Shown here piece after piece: positions 3,021 through 63,184 of a stretch of DNA of 64,000 bases. A model generated the notes under the pieces. The model ran no database searches. It had not been told where the DNA came from and saw only the letters and a program-made list of their open reading frames with translations. Each line of letters opens with the position of its first letter. Position 1 is the first letter of the stretch. Source of the DNA: Gammaproteobacteria bacterium (GTDB taxonomy: Bacteria; Pseudomonadota; Gammaproteobacteria; Burkholderiales; Burkholderiaceae_C); assembly GCA_025359085.1 (NCBI GenBank), contig JANYHL010000107.1, positions 1 through 64,000 on the forward strand, given 5' to 3'. Made by a program: the position numbers and the translations under genes.

Positions 3021-3764
3021 TCACCCTTTGAGGCTGGCCAGATCGGCCGCGCTCAGCCAGCGCCACTGGCCTGGGCTCAGGTCGTCGGGCAAACGCAAGC
3101 CGCCGATTTGCGAGCGGTGCAAGGCTTCTACCCGGTTGCTGACCGCCGCCACCATGCGTTTGACCTGGTGGTACTTGCCCTCGGTCAGCGTCAGGCGCAG
3201 GTGGTGGCTTGCTACCGCCTCGGCGGCGGCGGCGCGCACCGGTTTGGGGTCATCGTCGAGCACCACACCGGCCAGCAGCCGGGCCACCTGGGTGTCGTCG
3301 AGTGGATGTTTGACCGTGACCTCGTAGACCTTGGGCACATGGTGGCGTGGTGAATTCATGCGGTGGATGAACTGGCCGTCGTCGGTCAGCAGCAACAGCC
3401 CGGTGGTGTCCTGGTCCAGCCGGCCCACCGCCTGCACGCCTTGCACCGCGCCCTTTTGCGGGCGTAAGCGCAGGGCCGAGGGCAGCAGGGTGTAGATGCT
3501 GGGGTAGGTGGAGGGCTTTTGCGAGCACTCGGTGGCGGTTGGCTTGTGCAGCATGACATAGGCCTTGGCATGGAACGGCCAGTCCACCCCCTGAACCCGC
3601 AAGCGCAAACCATCTGCTTCAAATTCAGTAGCTGCTTGCGTATAGGGGACGGGGGCTAGCGCCTGATTTGGCTCATAAACTTGGACGAGACCCTGCTGGA
3701 TCAGACCGGCACAGACGCGCCGGGTGCCAAAGCCCTGGGAGTAGAGAATGTCTTGTAACTGCAT
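3021..3764 (-). CDS. RsuA-family 16S rRNA pseudouridine synthase
   Basis: A 247-residue protein with an N-terminal S4 RNA-binding-like segment (LQDILYSQGFGTRRVCAGLI) followed by the RsuA/RluB catalytic domain. The catalytic Asp lies in VGRLDQDTTGLLLLTDDG, and the family motif GKYHQVKRM is near the C-terminus. It probably isomerises a uridine of 16S rRNA (U516 in E. coli). A dispersed repeat runs through codons roughly 28-49, so the linker YTQAATEFEAD between S4 and catalytic domain is repeat-encoded while the frame stays open. The final residues overlap no neighbour; EI24 follows after about 28 bp. Confidence 0.88.
   Translation of the reverse strand: MQLQDILYSQGFGTRRVCAGLIQQGLVQVYEPNQALAPVPYTQAATEFEADGLRLRVQGVDWPFHAKAYVMLHKPTATECSQKPSTYPSIYTLLPSALRLRPQKGAVQGVQAVGRLDQDTTGLLLLTDDGQFIHRMNSPRHHVPKVYEVTVKHPLDDTQVARLLAGVVLDDDPKPVRAAAAEAVASHHLRLTLTEGKYHQVKRMVAAVSNRVEALHRSQIGGLRLPDDLSPGQWRWLSAADLASLKG
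3618..3679 (+). repeat. 60-bp dispersed repeat (core ATAGCTGCTTGC family), inside pseudouridine synthase gene
   Basis: Shows TAGCTGCTTGCG, GGGGGCTAGCGCCTGATTTGG and CTCATAAA in the order of the family described in the findings. It is antisense to the host gene and is translated within it without breaking the frame. Confidence 0.75.
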
Positions 3765-5712: not shown

Positions 5713-5934
5713 GACAACATCTGAATCCAGTGGAACCTTGTTTCAGATTATGCAGGGTAAACCCTGATTTTCACAGGCGCGCAGGCTCGACAATTTAGAG
5801 ACCCAGCGCTAATAAATCTGTTCTGGCCCGGAGCGCCGGGATGGTGGTGGCCACTGGCTATCGATGCGTTTGCAACATCACTCCTGAATAAATAGCTGCT
5901 TAGGCTTATTTCACGCGGGCTAGCGCCTGATTTG
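5580..5934. other. Gap between hypothetical gene and GGDEF-EAL gene
   Basis: Holds the phaC-like remnant, the AGGGTAAACCCT dyad and, next to the end of the GGDEF-EAL gene, one copy of the 60-bp dispersed repeat. The stretch around 5766-5880 shows nothing I can name. Confidence 0.5.
5754..5765. promoter_or_regulatory. AGGGTAAACCCT dyad upstream of the phaC-like remnant
   Basis: A near-palindromic motif about 40 bp upstream of the phaC-like start. The same GGGTAAACCCT is found at 9210-9220 upstream of the phasin gene. A shared element at two PHA-related loci suggests a common regulator or promoter class; this is inference. Confidence 0.35.
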
Positions 5935-5944
5935 TTATAAATTT
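5885..5944 (+). repeat. 60-bp dispersed repeat, downstream of GGDEF-EAL gene
   Basis: Contains AATAAATAGCTGCT, GCGGGCTAGCGCCTGATTTG and TTATAAAT, all hallmarks of the family. It overlaps the last codons and stop of the GGDEF-EAL gene on the opposite strand. Confidence 0.75.
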
Positions 5945-14023: not shown

Positions 14024-14084
14024 TCAAAAACAATAGCTACTTATGCATATTGGACGAGGGCTAGCGGCTGAAATGGTATAAATT
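14024..14084 (+). repeat. 60-bp dispersed repeat between engB and acyltransferase gene
   Basis: Shows CAATAGCTACTTATGC, TTGGACGAGGGCTAGCGGCTG and GGTATAAAT, a near-complete copy between convergent genes. Confidence 0.78.
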
Positions 14085-24651: not shown

Positions 24652-26415
24652 TTGGGTGGCATGGATTATTATTACCTCATGTTGCTTTTTCATCGTTTGC
24701 CTCTGCTTGTCGCCTTCGTTTGTGCACTGACCGTGAATGCACAGACGCCGCCTGTCAGCGCCGCCGAGCCCAAGAGTTCAGCGCTCGACAGCGAGCTCTT
24801 TTATCAATTGTTGTTGGGGGAACTCAATGCCCGCGGCGGTGAGCCCGGCGCCGCCTACTCGCTGATCCTGGATGCGGCGCGCAAGACGAATGATCCCAAG
24901 CTCTACCAACGTGCTGTTGACATCGCCCTGCAGGCACGCTCGGGCGACTCGGCGTTGCTGGCCTCGCGTGCCTGGAAACAAGCGCTGCCCGCATCACGCG
25001 AGGCCAATCGCTACGTTTTGCAAATATTGATCGGTCTGAACCGTATTGGAGAGACCCTGGAGCCGCTCAAGCGCGAGATCGCGACAAGTGATGCGAAAGA
25101 CCGGGCTGCCACCATCTTGGGCCTTGCACGCTACTTTGCCCGCGTGACCGATAAAAAACTGGCTGCCAGCACGGTGGAACAGGCCTTGGTCACCTATAAG
25201 AATGCGCCCGGGCTCGGCGTTGCCGCCTGGACCGTGATTGGACGCCTGCGTCTGGAAGCGGCTGACGTCAGTGGCGCCTTGAATGCGGTACGCATCGCTC
25301 AGGCGCTCGATGCAGGATCAGAGTATCCCGTCTTGTTGGCTTTGTCCATGATGGACCCGGAAGTACCGCAGGCCGAGGTTTTGGTACAGAAATATCTCGA
25401 AGGCAAGCCCAAGCCCGAGGTGCGAATGGAATATGCCCGCACCTTGTTGGCGGGACAACGCTACACGCAAGCGCTCACGCAGCTGCAACACCTTATCTCT
25501 GAAAAACCTGACTATACCGAGGCCTGGCTGATACAAGGTGTGCTCGAATTGCAGGAGGGCCATTCCGTGGCCGCCGAACGCTCGCTGCAGAAGTATGTGG
25601 AACTGGCGTTGCTCAAGCGCGATAGCACGGCGCGCCCGGAGCTCAGCCGTGGGTTGACCCAGGCTTATCTTTCTCTGGCCCAAATTGCCGAGCAAAGTAA
25701 AGATTTTGTGCAGGCCGACGCGTGGCTGCAGCGCATTGACAGCCAGGATGGCCTGCTTAACGCCCAACTGCGCCGGGCCGCTCTCTTGGCGCGGCAAGGC
25801 AAGCTGGAAGACGCACGCCAACTGATTCGCAGCCAACCCGAGCTCTCTCCTGCAGATAGTCGCTTGAAGACAAGTGCCGAAGTACAACTGTTGCGGGACA
25901 GCAAGCAGTACCTGGCCGCCCATGAAATTCTGGCCCAGGCGATTGCAGACAACCCTGAGGATTTTGATTTCACTTATGACCTGGCCATGGTGGCCGAAAA
26001 ACTGGGCCAGCTCGACGAGATGGAGCAGTTACTGCGCAGCGTTATCGCTGGCAAACCCGAGTATCCGCATGCCTACAACGCATTAGGTTATTCGCTGGCA
26101 GAACGCGGCGTTCGTTTGGCGGAGTCGAAACAACTGATATTGAAGGCGTTGAGCTATGCACCAGATGATTCATTCATCAGCGACAGTCTAGGCTGGGTTG
26201 AATTCCGCAGTGGCAATCTGGCCGAGGCACAACGCATTCTTGAGTCCGCGTTCAAAGCGCGCCCGGATGCAGAAATTGCCGCCCACTTGGGTGAAGTCTT
26301 GTGGACTTTGGGTCAGCGCGATCAGGCGGTGAGCATCTGGAAGCAAGGCTTGGGAATCAACGCTGAAAGTGAAACCTTGCTTGAAACACTGAAACGCCTG
26401 CGTGTGACCCTGTGA
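24652..26415 (+). CDS. TPR-repeat exported protein
   Basis: A 587-residue protein made of helical tetratricopeptide repeats (for example [36 protein letters not shown] and [30 protein letters not shown]). The N-terminal [22 protein letters not shown] looks like a signal peptide; 24661 is an alternative start. Its position just before lolB, with the stop overlapping the lolB start, is conserved in betaproteobacteria. It likely works in the periplasm or at the outer membrane, but its partner is unknown. Confidence 0.85.
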
Positions 26416-26924
26416 TGCGAGGCGGAATAACTGGTTTCGCGGCTCTTTTTTTTGCTATTATATTTATAGCTGGTTGCGCAGCTCCGGCGGGGGTTAGCAG
26501 CATAAATCAGTCTGAACCTTCAGTTTGGCGCGGACGGCTGGCGGTTCGCATCGAGTCCAACCCCGTGCAGTTTCAGCCCCAGACCTTTGCGGCCGGCTTT
26601 GAGCTGACCGGTAACGCGCAGACCGGTGAGTTGACGCTGTACACGCCCCTGGGCACGACCGCCGCCGTGCTCTCCTGGTCGGCTCAGACCGCGCTGATGC
26701 GCAGCAACGGCGACATTCGTTCTTTTGCATCGCTGGACGCCTTGATCCAGCAGGCGCTTGGCACCGAGTTACCCGTGGCGGCGCTCTTTGCCTGGCTGGC
26801 AGGAGACAACATGAGTGCGGCGGGCTGGAACGCCGACCTGTCGCAACGGGCTCATGGTCGGGTGACAGCCCGCCGCACGGAACCCGCACCCGTGACGGAA
26901 CTGCGACTGGTGCTTGAAAAATGA
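26412..26924 (+). CDS. lolB: Outer-membrane lipoprotein insertion factor LolB
   Basis: Receives lipoproteins from LolA and inserts them in the outer membrane. 170 residues with lipobox IAGC after a hydrophobic stretch (AALFFAIIFIAGC). WRGRLAVRIESNP and GELTLYTPLGTTAAVLSW match the LolB fold, and FAWLAG is typical near the C-terminus. The whole signal peptide and lipobox are encoded by a copy of the 60-bp dispersed repeat. It overlaps the TPR gene by four bases and ispE by four bases, so the three are one operon. Confidence 0.9.
   Translation: MMRGGITGFAALFFAIIFIAGCAAPAGVSSINQSEPSVWRGRLAVRIESNPVQFQPQTFAAGFELTGNAQTGELTLYTPLGTTAAVLSWSAQTALMRSNGDIRSFASLDALIQQALGTELPVAALFAWLAGDNMSAAGWNADLSQRAHGRVTARRTEPAPVTELRLVLEK
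26451..26507 (+). repeat. 60-bp dispersed repeat encoding the LolB signal peptide and lipobox
   Basis: TTTGCTATTATATTTATAGC, TGGTTGCGC, GGGGGTTAGCAGC and ATAAAT occur in family order. The core ATAGCTGGTTGC is translated I-A-G-C, the lipobox. Confidence 0.75.
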
Positions 26925-28921: not shown

Positions 28922-28936
28922 TTTGAGCAAAAGTGG

Positions 28937-28973
28937 GCTCAAACACGAGGCATCTCGTGCTTGAGCTTTTTTT
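28937..28973 (+). terminator. Terminator between prs and rplY
   Basis: GCTCAAACACGAG-gcat-CTCGTGCTTGAGC followed by TTTTTTT; a 13-bp stem with one mismatch. rplY must therefore rely on its own promoter or on read-through. Confidence 0.85.
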
Positions 28974-29022
28974 AAAGTCGGAGTCCCACTGGTCGCGGTG
29001 GACTCATCCTGGAGTAAAAATT

Positions 29023-29754
29023 ATGAAATTCGTCGCTTTTGAGCGCGCCATGCAGGGCACGGGTGCGAGCCGCCGTCTCCGCATCTCCGGTCGCACACCG
29101 GGTATTGTTTACGGTGGTGGCAATGAGCCCCTGCAGATCGAGATTGATCACAATGCGCTTTGGCACGCCTTGAAGAAAGAGGCTTTTCACGCCACCGTTC
29201 TGGAAATGGACCTGAACGGCAGCGAGAGCAAGGTTTTGCTGCGTGACGTGCAGATGCACCCGTTCAAGCAGCTCATTTTGCACGTTGACTTTCAACGTGT
29301 CGATGCCAGCACCAAGCTGCACATGAAAGTGCCATTGCACTACAGTGGCGATGAAAACTCGGCCGCTATCAAGACCGAAGGCTGCATTGCCAATCATGTG
29401 ATCACCGAAATCGAAGTGCTGTGCCTCCCGAGCGACCTGCCTGAATTTATCGCGGTGGATTTGAGTGGCCTGAAAAAAGGCGCCTCACTGCACTTGGCCG
29501 ATGTCGTCCTGCCCAAGGGTGTGACCGCTGTGAAACGCGGCAACAACAACCCGGTTCTGGTATCGGTGGTGGTTATTGCTGCAGCAGAAGCGCCAGCCGC
29601 CGACGCTGGCGCTGCTGCTGATGCTGGCGCAACTGCAGCGCCCGCCGCTGGCAAAGCGCCCGCAGCCAAGGCACCCGCAGCCAAGGCGCCTGCGGCTAAA
29701 GCACCTGCGGCTAAAGCACCCGCAGCGAAAGCACCTGCCGCCAAGAAGAAGTAA
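29023..29754 (+). CDS. rplY: 50S ribosomal protein L25, general stress protein (CTC) form
   Basis: Binds 5S rRNA. About 243 residues: the L25 domain ([31 protein letters not shown]) followed by the TL5/CTC C-terminal domain ([46 protein letters not shown]). The chosen ATG starts [14 protein letters not shown] and has GGAG upstream; the frame extends 30 codons further up without support. The C-terminal tail is Ala/Lys/Pro-rich, ending in six copies of a five-residue KAPAA unit, which is basic and likely RNA-binding or flexible. pth follows after a terminator. Confidence 0.95.
29653..29742 (+). repeat. Tandem 15-bp repeat encoding (KAPAA)6 in rplY
   Basis: Six units of AARGCNCCNGCNGCN, varying at third positions only. 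Copy number is likely variable between strains. Confidence 0.85.
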
Positions 29755-29843
29755 AGCTTGGAGTGTTGGACCAGCGCTGACCTGCAGGGCAGGTGGCGCT
29801 TATGCTGTTTCAACTGAAATGACTGGCTACCCCCAGTCCATGC

Positions 29844-30551: not shown

Positions 30552-31004
30552 ATGCCAAACCACACCTTGATTGCTACTATTGTTATAGCTGCTTGCGCTT
30601 TATCGACGGGGGCCCGGGCCCAAAACGTCTATAAATGTGGAACTTCTTACAGTCAGATGCCCTGTCCCGGCGGGAATGTCATCGACCCCACGGATGAACG
30701 CACCTCTGCCCAGAAAAAGCAAACTGATCTGGCCACGGGGCGGGACGCCCGCCTTGCGGCGGCGATGGAAAAGGCTCGGCTGGAACAAGAGAAAAAAGAC
30801 CTGGCCGCCAACACGCCTCTGAAAACAACGCTGGAAAAGCCAGCCCCTGTCAAGCTCGCAAAAAAGGTCGGCAACCCGCAGGCCAAAGTGAAGAAAAAGA
30901 AAGAAAAAGAGCCCGACTATTTTGTGGCGCAGCTACCGGGCGACAAAAAGAAAAAACCGGCTGCCAACAAGAGCAGACCAAAAAAGGACGCCAACCAGCG
31001 CTGA
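30552..31004 (+). CDS. DUF4124 domain exported protein
   Basis: 150 residues. A hydrophobic leader (LIATIVIAACALSTGARAQ) is followed by the DUF4124 core QNVYKCGTSYSQMPCPGG and a long, highly charged Lys-rich tail with low complexity (KVKKKKEKEPD, KKKKPAANKSRPKK). Function of DUF4124 proteins is unknown; they are thought to be envelope proteins. The entire leader is encoded by the dispersed repeat; IAAC could act as a lipobox or GARA-Q as a signal-peptidase I site. It follows pth by about 40 bp. Confidence 0.78.
   Translation: MPNHTLIATIVIAACALSTGARAQNVYKCGTSYSQMPCPGGNVIDPTDERTSAQKKQTDLATGRDARLAAAMEKARLEQEKKDLAANTPLKTTLEKPAPVKLAKKVGNPQAKVKKKKEKEPDYFVAQLPGDKKKKPAANKSRPKKDANQR
30571..30636 (+). 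repeat. 60-bp dispersed repeat encoding a DUF4124 protein signal peptide
   Basis: TTGCTACTATTGTTATAGCT, GCTTGCGCTTTATCGACGGGGGCCCGGG and CTATAAAT in family order; translated as ATIVIAACALSTGARAQNVYK. Confidence 0.75.
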
Positions 31005-34291: not shown

Positions 34292-35674
34292 TTATTGGTC
34301 GGCGTTCACCCCACCCAACACCACTGTCACCATCTTGTCGGGCTGCAGTTTGCGCCCAAATGCGGCCTGGATATCTTTCACTGTCACTTGCGCCAACTGC
34401 TGCGTCCAGGTCTCCAGATAGTCCAGCGCGAGCCCATTCCATGCCATGTTGGCAACATTGTCGAGCAGTTTGCGGTTGCTGTCGATGCGCAGGGCAAAGC
34501 CACCGATCAGGTTGTCTTTGGCGGCCTGGAGTTCGGCCTGGGTCGGGCCATCGGTGACAAAGTTGATCAGCACGTCGCGTGCCACTCGCACCGCCTGCTC
34601 GGCCTGGTCGGGCCGGGTTTGCAGGCCCAGCGTGAAGGCACCGGCATGCAAGCCGGGCGCAAAGTAGCTGTACACGCTGTAGCTCAACCCCCGTTTTTCA
34701 CGGACCTCGTTCGTCAAGCGCGATACAAAGCCGCCGCCACCCAAAATGTAGTTGCCCACTGTCAGCGCAAAGTAGTCGGGATCCTGGCGCTTGAAACCGG
34801 GTTGCCCGATGAGCACATGGGCCTGCGCTGAGGCGAATGAAATCTGTTTGACGACGGGCTGCTCCAGCGGCGCCACCTCGGCCACGGTGGGCAGCGCCGG
34901 GCAGGCGGCTGCCGCAGTGCGCAGGCGGGCCAGTAACTGCGTCACCAAGGCGTCGGCCTGGGCCCGGTTAACCGCTCCCACCAGTGTCACCTTGGCTCGG
35001 CAAGGGCTGAGCAGGCGGGCCTGCAGTGACTTCATGTCCGACACGCTGATGCGCGCCAAGCTGGCCTCTGTCATCTCAAAGCCATAGGGATGCTGGCCGT
35101 AAACCGCCGTGGCGAAAGCGCGACCCGCGAGCGTTGCCGGGCGGGTGTTGGCTTCCTTCAGGGCGGCATTCAGCGTTTCACGCTCGCGCTGCCAGATCGC
35201 CTCAGGGAAGGTCGGCTCACCGAGTTGGCGCGCCGCGAGTTGCACCGCTTGGGCCAGCAACGGGGGGTCGGTGAGTGAGCGCAGCGAAAAACTCATGCGG
35301 TCACTGCTGGCGCCGGCATGAAAGGAGGCACCCAGGTCGGCCCAGGCTTCACTCAAGGCATTTTCATCCAGCGCCGACTCAGGGGCACCCGCGTCAGCAG
35401 CTTTGCCGACCCTGGCCATGACCCCTTTGTCAGTCATGCTGGCGCTGACGCTGGCCAGCCCGGCCTGGCCTGCCGGGTCACGGCGACTGCCGGCGTCAAA
35501 GTCAATCTGCATATCCAGCATCGGGATGCCGTGGCTCTGCACCAGATAGACCTGCGCGCCCGAGGCTTGCGTCCAGTGCTCAATGGGAATGCCCGCTTGC
35601 ACAGGATTTGCAAGAAATAGGGCCGTAGCCCCCGTCCATATTACGTAAGCAGCTATATTTTTTATAGTAATCAT
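34292..35674 (-). CDS. M16 peptidase-like protein, non-catalytic partner
   Basis: About 460 residues in two M16 halves. The zinc motif HxxEH is absent, while the C-terminal half keeps REKRGLSYSVYSYF, the Arg/Tyr pair that partner subunits donate. It therefore likely forms a heterodimer with the neighbouring M16 protein. A signal peptide (KNIAAYVIWTGATALFLANPVQAG) indicates the periplasm, and is encoded by the dispersed repeat. The ATG at 35674 starts directly before the repeat; an upstream ATG at 35719 would overlap the previous gene by 14 bp. Confidence 0.88.
   Translation of the reverse strand: MITIKNIAAYVIWTGATALFLANPVQAGIPIEHWTQASGAQVYLVQSHGIPMLDMQIDFDAGSRRDPAGQAGLASVSASMTDKGVMARVGKAADAGAPESALDENALSEAWADLGASFHAGASSDRMSFSLRSLTDPPLLAQAVQLAARQLGEPTFPEAIWQRERETLNAALKEANTRPATLAGRAFATAVYGQHPYGFEMTEASLARISVSDMKSLQARLLSPCRAKVTLVGAVNRAQADALVTQLLARLRTAAAACPALPTVAEVAPLEQPVVKQISFASAQAHVLIGQPGFKRQDPDYFALTVGNYILGGGGFVSRLTNEVREKRGLSYSVYSYFAPGLHAGAFTLGLQTRPDQAEQAVRVARDVLINFVTDGPTQAELQAAKDNLIGGFALRIDSNRKLLDNVANMAWNGLALDYLETWTQQLAQVTVKDIQAAFGRKLQPDKMVTVVLGGVNADQ
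35606..35668 (-). repeat. 60-bp dispersed repeat encoding an M16 protein signal peptide
   Basis: On the minus strand CTATAAAAAATATAGCTGC, TTACGTAATATGGACGGGGGCTACGGCC. It begins at codon 3 of the M16 gene; the core ATAGCTGCTTAC is translated I-A-A-Y. Confidence 0.75.
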
Positions 35675-51358: not shown

Positions 51359-51961
51359 ATGAATAAACGAAATACTCTTAAATTAATAGCTGCTTACGCC
51401 CTGTTGACGGGGGCCGCAGCCATTTTTTCTGCTTGCTCCGAGAAGTCGCCGAGTTTTTCGGCGATTGACCTCACCGGCGCTGATTACGCCAAAGACTTTG
51501 CCCTGACCGACTACAACGGCCAGCCCAGGACTCTGAAAGACTTTGCGGGCAAGGTGGTGGTGCTGTTCTTTGGCTATGTGCAGTGCCCGGATGTCTGCCC
51601 CACCTCGATGGCTGAACTGGCCGAGGCAAAAAGGCTGCTCGGCAAGGATGGCGAACGCGTGCAGGGTTTGTTCGTCACGGTCGATCCGGCGCGTGACACC
51701 CCCGAAGTACTCAAAGGCTATATGGAAGCTTTTGATCCGACCTTTCTGGCGCTCTACACCACCCCGGAAAAGCTGTCGGTGCTGGCCAAGGACTACAAGC
51801 TGTACTACAAAAAGGTCGATGGCCCCACGCCCACCAGCTACTCCATGGATCATTCGGCGGGCAGCTACGTCTACGACACACAGGGCAAATTGCGCCTGTT
51901 TACCCGTTACGGCAACGGTGCCGCGCTGCTGGCGGCGGACATCAAACTCCTGTTGCAGTGA
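51359..51961 (+). CDS. SCO1/SenC copper chaperone
   Basis: Supplies copper to the CuA site of oxidase. 200 residues. Copper motif CPDVC in FGYVQCPDVCPTSM with a downstream His in YSMDHSAGSYV, plus VTVDPARDTPEVLKGY. The N-terminal leader LIAAYALLTGAAAIFSACSEK carries a likely lipobox FSAC and is encoded largely by the dispersed repeat. Last gene of the cox cluster; the accessory region begins after it. Confidence 0.94.
   Translation: MNKRNTLKLIAAYALLTGAAAIFSACSEKSPSFSAIDLTGADYAKDFALTDYNGQPRTLKDFAGKVVVLFFGYVQCPDVCPTSMAELAEAKRLLGKDGERVQGLFVTVDPARDTPEVLKGYMEAFDPTFLALYTTPEKLSVLAKDYKLYYKKVDGPTPTSYSMDHSAGSYVYDTQGKLRLFTRYGNGAALLAADIKLLLQ
51370..51428 (+). repeat. 60-bp dispersed repeat encoding the SCO protein leader
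   Basis: CTTAAATTAATAGCTGCTTA, CGCCCTGTTGACGGGGGCCGC and CATTTTTT in family order. The core ATAGCTGCTTAC is translated I-A-A-Y in the same frame as in the other three exported proteins. Confidence 0.7.
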
Positions 51962-62372: not shown

Positions 62373-63113
62373 ATGACTCTGAAAGTGTTGATCGTGGACG
62401 ATGAAGCGCTGGCGCGCGCCCGCCTGCGAACGTTGCTGGGAGATTGCACGGCGCCTGCGGCCCGGGTGGAGGCCGAGGCCGCCAACGCCGCGCAGGCCCT
62501 GGCTTGGCTGCAGCACCACCCGGTCGATCTGGTCTTGATCGATATTCACATGCCGGGGGCTGACGGTCTGGCGCTGGCACAGACGCTGCGCACGCGGGCC
62601 CAGCCACCGGCTGTGGTGTTCGTCACCGCCTACGCCGAACACGCGGTGCAAGCGTTCGAGCTCGAAGCGGTGGACTACCTGACCAAGCCGGTGCGCTTGG
62701 AGCGGCTCCAGGTTACGCTACAAAAAATAGAGCGCATTACGAAGCAGACTCGGGGGCTGGAGCCTGATTTGCCTGAAGAGTTTTTGGTGATTCAAGACCG
62801 GGGTCGAACCGAGCGTGTGTCGTTGGCCGCGGTGCTGTATCTCAAGGCAGAGCTGAAATACATCACGGTGCGCACGGTGGCCCGGAGCTACCTGCTGGAA
62901 GGCGCCTTGAGTGAGCTCGAAGACAAATACAAGACGTACTTTGTGCGTATCCACCGCAACGCCCTGATTGCCCGGCGCGCCGTGCGCTCGCTGGAAAAGT
63001 ACCACGACCCGCAAGAAGGCGACGGCTGGGCGGTGCGGCTCAACAACATTGACGAATTACTGTGGGTGTCGCGCCGGCAATTGGCGGCGGTGCGCGAACT
63101 GGTGGTGGGCTAA
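62373..63113 (+). CDS. LytTR-family response regulator (AlgR-like)
   Basis: 246 residues. Receiver domain with phospho-acceptor Asp in LVLIDIHMPGADGLAL, acidic DDEA near the start and Lys in LTKPVRL; C-terminal LytTR DNA-binding domain with VLYLKAELKYITVRTVARSYLLEGALSELEDKY and FVRIHRNALIARRAVRSLEKYHD. The linker (KIERITKQTRGLEPDLPEEF) may be repeat-derived. It is 24 bp after the kinase gene. Targets unknown; AlgR homologues act on pili and exopolysaccharide. Confidence 0.94.
   Translation: MTLKVLIVDDEALARARLRTLLGDCTAPAARVEAEAANAAQALAWLQHHPVDLVLIDIHMPGADGLALAQTLRTRAQPPAVVFVTAYAEHAVQAFELEAVDYLTKPVRLERLQVTLQKIERITKQTRGLEPDLPEEFLVIQDRGRTERVSLAAVLYLKAELKYITVRTVARSYLLEGALSELEDKYKTYFVRIHRNALIARRAVRSLEKYHDPQEGDGWAVRLNNIDELLWVSRRQLAAVRELVVG
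62718..62772 (+). repeat. Diverged dispersed repeat in the LytTR regulator linker (tentative)
   Basis: CAAAAAATAGAGCGCATTACG and CGGGGGCTGGAGCCTGATTTG align with the 60-bp family with several changes. It falls exactly between receiver and DNA-binding domain. Confidence 0.45.
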
Positions 63114-63121
63114 ATTAAGTT

Positions 63122-63184
63122 GATATTTATTTGATAGCTGCTAACGCTTATTGGACGGTGGCTACAGCCTGATTGTTTATAAAT
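63122..63184 (+). repeat. 60-bp dispersed repeat after the LytTR regulator gene
   Basis: TATTTATTTGATAGCTGCTA, ACGCTTATTGGACGGTGGCTAC, GCCTGATTG and TTTATAAATG; a near-complete intergenic copy. Confidence 0.8.

Follow-up and report, generated by a model that had tools for sequence, protein, structure and literature searches.

A ~44-bp chromosomal motif of Rhodoferax-type bacteria is read both as export leaders and as segments of enzymes

Repeat copies in the window and their host genes

The 64-kb window, i.e., the whole stretch of DNA analysed here, comes from a genome of 3.16 Mb in 149 contigs (hereafter the source genome). It contains a lolB gene (26412..26924, + strand) recognised by PF03550 (E 1.3e-13) and, under the cut-off of the model, by TIGR00548 (E 7e-6). 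At E<1e-3, a profile built from the window copies and then iterated detects a ~44-bp repeat nine times in the window; four copies encode leaders, two lie inside genes without a leader role and three are intergenic. The lolB copy (26462..26507, + strand, frame +0, E 2.8e-5), second weakest of the nine, encodes the end of the hydrophobic core and the lipobox, I-A-G-C being read from ATA GCT GGT TGC at 26466-26477, as stated in the original prediction. Leaders of three further proteins are likewise read in frame +0 from copies: a 150-aa protein encoded at 30552 (30583..30625, + strand, E 1e-7; IAACALSTGARAQN), for which a Pfam search gave no match, an M16-family peptidase (35612..35659, - strand, E 2.8e-11; PF05193) and a SCO1/SenC lipoprotein (51381..51428, + strand, E 5.9e-9; PF02630), whose lipobox Cys is encoded immediately 3' of the copy. 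The repeat peptide is I-A-A-[Y/C]-[A/V] in these three and I-A-G-C-A in LolB. A scan of viral contigs with LolB found no relative. Elsewhere in the window, a 15-bp coding repeat (AAKAPA-type) is arranged in tandem at 29638-29757, at the end of an ORF spanning 28933-29754.

The four leader copies recognised in the original prediction are real, and the window holds five others besides. One of these (3623..3675, + strand, E 1.2e-11) lies in a pseudouridine synthase gene (PF00849; ORF 3021-3764, - strand), which reads antisense to the repeat in frame -2 (NQALAPVPYTQAAT); an orthologous copy is found at a congener locus (L308). A weak copy (62729..62773, + strand, E 2.3e-4) is read in frame +1 within a LytTR response-regulator gene (62373-63113, + strand; PF00072 and PF04397), its TAG being changed to GAG. 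The same change of the near-invariant TAG to GAG (x-E-L-L) is often seen in other copies read through in frame +1 (stretches C30, C37, C71, C109 and C130 of the source genome, and several in the congener G069), i.e., the core T of TAG gives way there. The intergenic copies (5887..5939, E 7.2e-13; 14030..14080, E 6.2e-12; 63129..63178, E 4.1e-11; all + strand) lie outside long ORFs.

Abundance and genomic placement

The source-genome consensus of the motif is ATAGCTGCTTRCGCATATTCGACGGGGGCTAGAGCCYGATTT, and copies occur at a density of about one per 7-8 kb. In 727 kb of fetched source-genome sequence, mostly chosen around hits and searched with a model seeded with eight copies (four of them from leaders), 198 copies were detected at E<1e-3 against zero in the same sequence reversed, which shows the repeat to exceed chance. 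In this hit-based sample scoring was confined to the best 150 of 861 candidates, and its leader rate was therefore not used. A fair sample, made of stretches taken by place (177 kb), holds 22 copies, i.e., ~390 per genome.

The congener G069, sampled for comparison as three 400-kb blocks taken by place (1.2 Mb), contains 171 copies, with zero at E<1e-3 in the reversed control. Both strands are about equally used (25/23, 31/35 and 32/25, +/-, in the three blocks) and no strand bias was seen along the blocks. Although coding sequence makes up 87-90% of each block according to a home-made gene caller, 107 of the 171 copies are intergenic, 14 lie at gene edges and 50 lie in genes. Intergenic copies favour gaps between convergent genes (39 observed vs 18.4 expected by length) and avoid divergent gaps (9 observed vs 32.3 expected).

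Exact matches to the repeat core were found in 73 stretches of named genomes, which belong to Rhodoferax, Polaromonas and Curvibacter and to MAGs labelled only beta proteobacterium, Burkholderiales, Pseudomonadota or bacterium. The window probably derives from a Rhodoferax relative. Across the genus, copy number ranges from 0 to at least 148 at E<=1e-5, these per-genome counts resting on a model of source-genome copies by which other variants are undercounted. The consensus had no match in plasmid and phage collections, a weak test with a degenerate 49-mer as query.

A spaced motif, ATAGCT(N)22CAAAAG, has been described from Polaromonas naphthalenivorans, with no function given in the part of the source available (PMC5217627). 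Its 125 copies comprise 101 intergenic ones, 18 in genes and 6 overlapping, 34 lie between convergent genes, and the most motif pairs were counted in Rhodoferax ferrireducens T118 (PMC5217627). It shares ATAGCT with our motif, and its CAAAAG block stands at the position of CTAGAG in the source-genome consensus. We take the two motifs to belong to one family.

Reading frames inside genes and in leaders

In-gene copies occur in sense and antisense alike. Among 47 internal in-frame copies of the source-genome sample, 26 are read in frame -2 (NQALAPVEYAQAAI), 15 in +0 (IAAYAxSTGARxQF) and 6 elsewhere, while the 50 in-gene copies of G069 comprise 23 in the equivalent of -2, 12 in that of +0 and 15 elsewhere. 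Across the 198 source-genome copies, frames +0, -1, -2, +2, -0 and +1 are open in 128, 126, 88, 41, 24 and 12 cases, respectively. Frame -1 is often open but not hydrophobic; only +0 and -2 are both. In-frame copies lie inside many non-exported enzymes in both genomes, and enzyme or gene hosts include TruB, DprA, a lipoyl/FAD enzyme and two that we take, partly from known motifs, to be PurL (two sites) and MutL. PurL (stretch C129) and a ComEC-like protein (stretch C93) carry two in-frame copies each in both species (block C of G069), at matching places as far as compared. Pseudouridine synthase hosts are TruB (C7:14828) and the window gene at 3021-3764; genes for tRNA pseudouridine synthases also host unrelated REPs and RPEs (PMC3733652).

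Leaders were sought with a frame-blind test combining an upstream start, an open path, downstream coding sequence and a crude signal-peptide pattern. It accepted 8 leaders among the 198 source-genome copies, 7 in frame +0 and a doubtful one in -1 (C95) that looks spurious, and 3 among the 171 G069 copies, all in +0. Leader copies thus use frame +0 in 10 of 11 cases, a pair of which is orthologous (binomial at 1/6, p 1.5e-7), and random G069 positions passing the test (98/6000) are spread evenly (10-22 per frame). The leader frame bias is therefore real beyond the window. The automated test missed leaders accepted by eye, namely those of the M16 peptidase, SCO1, the 150-aa protein and the C7_809 paralogue and both leaders in -2. 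Curation by eye, which covers the source-genome copies (the G069 leaders being those of the automated test), gives 13 leaders, 11 in +0 (two belonging to adjacent paralogues) and the other two in -2. The single leader frame of the original prediction consequently holds throughout the window and for 11/13 leaders of the source genome, but 2/13 use another frame on the opposite strand.

Repeat-encoded peptides are more hydrophobic in leaders than in internal +0 copies (mean 1.31 vs 0.34, p 0.0018, n=11 and 15). We attribute the frame bias to the motif itself, in which no frames other than +0 and -2 combine frequent openness with hydrophobicity. Leaders in the stretches taken by place are as frequent as expected by chance, with 3/171 in G069 vs 1.6% of random positions and 0/22 in the source genome, and the share of leaders in the window (4/9) is atypical. 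The proposed recruitment of the repeat as a module for export signals is not supported, given this lack of enrichment, the openness and hydrophobicity that the sequence itself confers on +0 and -2, and the copies in non-exported enzymes.

Orthologues of the leaders and of PurL

The lipobox Cys of LolB is kept in all 23 genus sequences compared (source genome included), its place being unchanged or nearly so, and a repeat copy is detectable (E<=0.01) in 5 of the 23, i.e., in the source genome and, at the same position, in 4 of 22 congeners. The M16 leader, read by eye, has a constant length of 27 residues, counted from the aligned Met, across the 14 genus sequences, 8 of which have a detected copy (source genome included in both counts). 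For SCO1, the leader copy is present in 8/21 genus sequences (source genome included) and in 7/29 from other genera, in a family comparison covering 30 of 42 family matches; within the genus, most leaders without the copy line up with an equal or almost equal length. The original prediction held that orthologues having the same leader by descent but not the repeat would speak against it, and LolB and the M16 peptidase partly behave in this way. Since lipobox and leader length are kept where no copy is detectable, and since copies are shared between species, the copies are old and the leaders do not depend on them.

At site 1 of PurL, near-consensus copies occur in the source genome, in a Rhodoferax locus (L145) and at two further loci (L132 and L177), and a match at E<=0.1 is found in 7/29 family genomes. 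The PurL loop measures 31 residues in 13 of these 29 genomes (source genome included) and 26 in another six, the remaining ones having loops of 12-38 residues.

Constraint, parallel change and loss at the DNA level

The 198 source-genome copies retain A3, G4 and C5 at frequencies of 0.99-1.00 and GGGCT at 0.95-0.98. Twelve columns out of 44 lie at 0.35-0.55, and identity to the consensus is at most 0.89 in every copy. Information per copy amounts to 43-45 bits, far above the ~14 bits that we estimate to suffice for marking several hundred sites; this points to copying by descent as well. In ten orthologous comparisons at six source-genome sites, the pairs being picked because both carry a detectable copy, codons for the same residue are identical in 92/108 cases within the repeat vs 583/940 in the flanks (p 7e-7); overall nucleotide identity is hardly higher in the repeat (359/438) than outside (2811/3504).

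Out of 70 in-gene queries from the source genome, 20 align across the repeat to a G069 orthologue, which has a copy of at least 12 bits in 16 cases, a weak one (7.7 bits) in one and none in three; with the count restricted to blocks taken by place, 13 of 16 have such a copy. These 16 shared sites (13 in blocks taken by place, 2 in protein-fetched loci and 1 in a hit-fetched locus) reveal parallel change between the species. Position 24 is G at 16/16 sites in the source genome and A at 9 in G069, and position 27 is G at 15/16 in the former and C at 9 in the latter, while each scored base of TAGC and GCTA is kept at 13 to 16 of the 16 sites in both species. The source-species model still fits better at 5/16 of the G069 sites, so the species-wise shift is partial. 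Because the parallel change spans several reading frames, selection on the proteins explains it poorly.

Loss of the motif was followed with a leader core score (12 core bases, best of five registers) in 24 congeners, the source genome being left out. Without correction for phylogeny, the mean score at the three leaders correlates with copy number (rho 0.76), as do the scores at SCO1 (0.90), M16 (0.65) and lolB (0.59) taken separately. Eight zero-copy genomes average 5.3/12 and eleven genomes with at least 4 copies 10.8/12, random positions scoring 4.9/12; exceptions at lolB are the rich carriers G073 and G082, with 7 and 6 of 12. In a tree of SCO1 and LolB, zero-copy genomes fall in three places and carriers surround the pair G062/G080, which has a support of 0.999 (0.891 together with G072).

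Relation to known repeats and candidate factors

In-gene REPs, RPEs and a signal peptide formed by a repeat are known from other bacteria (PMC3733652, PMC2229807, PMC2759123). Like REPs (PMC2817692, PMC3733652), the present motif is short, has more than 100 copies, is mostly extragenic with some intragenic copies, and has copies adjoining a RAYT gene; it differs in having no GTAG or CGTC end, in RAYT-side copies that are not inverted, in few dimers, in the ~30% of G069 copies located in genes and in the absence of a covarying hairpin. Rickettsia palindromic elements resemble it in lying in-frame within conserved protein genes but are stem-loops of 105-146 bp (PMC2229807), whereas our motif is ~44 bp long and has site-specific base constraint. 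The enterobacterial RU-1 and RU-2 are larger MITE-like elements with few coding cases (PMC2759123), and frame statistics or orthologue decay were not found in the available part of that account. Likewise, no reading-frame, leader, orthologue or conservation analysis was found in what is available of the account of the Polaromonas motif (PMC5217627). Searches of mostly openly accessible papers yielded nothing on the reading frames of the motif, its presence in leaders or its parallel change by species; searching by the letters of the repeat, or for uptake sequences together with Comamonadaceae, retrieved no paper.

DNA uptake sequences, which favour the uptake of DNA bearing them, combine high copy number, an even distribution over strands, shared sites, species variants, a minority of copies in genes and tolerated reading frames. 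The present motif resembles them in its many copies on both strands, shared sites, species variants and minority of copies in genes in tolerated frames; it is longer and more degenerate than known uptake sequences.

Two candidate genes were rejected as the cause of presence or absence of the motif: Y1-transposase matches are found in 25/25 genus genomes and ComEC in 24/25, zero-copy genomes included in both cases, the single genome without ComEC (G082) being a rich carrier.

Weighing the alternatives

The repeat could be a REP-type element spread by a resident RAYT, its intragenic copies being of the kind published for REPs (PMC3733652). Its abundance (171 copies in 1.2 Mb of G069, 107 of them intergenic) and preference for convergent gaps are REP-like, and the only RAYT of the source genome (open frame C107:4397-5122; NF047646, 84.7 bits, cut-off 80) has a copy on either side of its matched coding region, at 67 bp upstream and at 24 bp downstream; the latter recurs in the carriers G069, G082, G099 and G079. 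At this locus (L093, C107:4306-5160), the downstream copy overlaps the stop codon, with the upstream copy close by. The two flanking copies are however in one orientation rather than inverted, the downstream copy is present in only 5/18 loci examined, and no copy lies close to the RAYT of the rich carrier G073. Since a 3'-end copy accompanies 10% of G069 genes, and copies on both sides 0.6%, such adjacency is weak evidence. The source-genome and G069 consensus, both of which begin with ATAG, have GTAG or CGTC at neither end; in the former, CGTC is confined to an internal position on the reverse strand, and it is absent from the latter. Dimers are few (9 pairs closer than 200 bp among the 171 G069 copies vs 4.8 expected, 5 of the 9 in opposite orientation), and close RAYT orthologues (76-84% identical) occur in six zero-copy genomes. 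The link to REP and RAYT is only suggestive, and we regard this origin as rather unlikely.

An ancient insertion family of the RPE or MITE kind, now decaying neutrally and tolerated in linkers, loops and leaders, would account for in-frame copies in many enzymes, and the different PurL loop lengths (31, 26 or 12-38 residues) make an ancient gain of length possible there. Neutral decay is hard to reconcile with near-invariant core columns, synonymous constraint and species-specific parallel change at shared sites, nor does the M16 leader differ in length with and without the motif; we hold it to be improbable. The prevalence of a single frame among automatically found leaders (10/11) and their greater hydrophobicity would suit a repeat recruited to supply leaders and the LolB lipobox, but a leader rate equal to that of random positions, and orthologues that keep lipobox and leader length where no copy is detectable, make such recruitment very improbable. 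A transcribed RNA element acting as terminator, attenuator or mRNA stabiliser would fit the enrichment between convergent genes and the folding of the G069 consensus (-17 kcal/mol; -10.7 kcal/mol for the source-genome consensus). No covarying pairs were found among the copies of either species, so conservation does not stem from RNA structure; moreover, Rfam matches only a tRNA in the window and in-gene copies lie in sense and antisense alike, which leaves this explanation barely credible. The G069 consensus (blocks L362-L421) contains an 8-bp palindrome, GCGCTTGT...ACAAGCGC, that is absent from the source-genome consensus, the G069 copies themselves having no covariation.

Proposed explanation and significance

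The explanation that we favour, with a probability of roughly 0.6, is that an old ~44-bp motif is maintained at hundreds of sites on the chromosomes of Rhodoferax-type bacteria by a force acting on DNA rather than on protein or RNA. We place this force at the DNA level because of the abundance of the motif, its near-invariant core, the synonymous constraint (in a small selected set), the parallel change and the motif-less leaders of non-carriers. Many of the sites are common to more than one species, and a putative trans-acting, DNA-recognising factor would keep them matching its preference; candidates may be a nucleoid protein, a protein of the uptake type or a REP-type transposase that has been domesticated. 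In G069, about two thirds of the copies are intergenic and ~30% sit within genes that would tolerate the encoded peptide. Signal peptides would be one such tolerated place because in frame +0 the motif encodes a hydrophobic segment whose ends are AxA and lipobox-like. The leader itself would be independent of the motif, the protein tuning the free positions of the motif towards greater hydrophobicity while the core bases stay.

We further suggest, as a tentative idea with the odds somewhat against it, that this putative factor, having changed its preference between species, rewrote segments of some two hundred genes in each genome (a figure extrapolated from 50 in a quarter of G069), export leaders included, so that the proteins evolve in step with a DNA rule and relax once the factor is lost. 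If this is right, these bacteria would provide a natural experiment on how far a demand at the DNA level shapes proteins, with many shared sites at which a given leader or enzyme loop can be set side by side in lineages with and without the motif. The comparison of carriers with the non-carriers nested among them would offer a route to the factor, and the unusual AT-rich codons and unusual loops that proteins of Rhodoferax-type bacteria contain would be accounted for.
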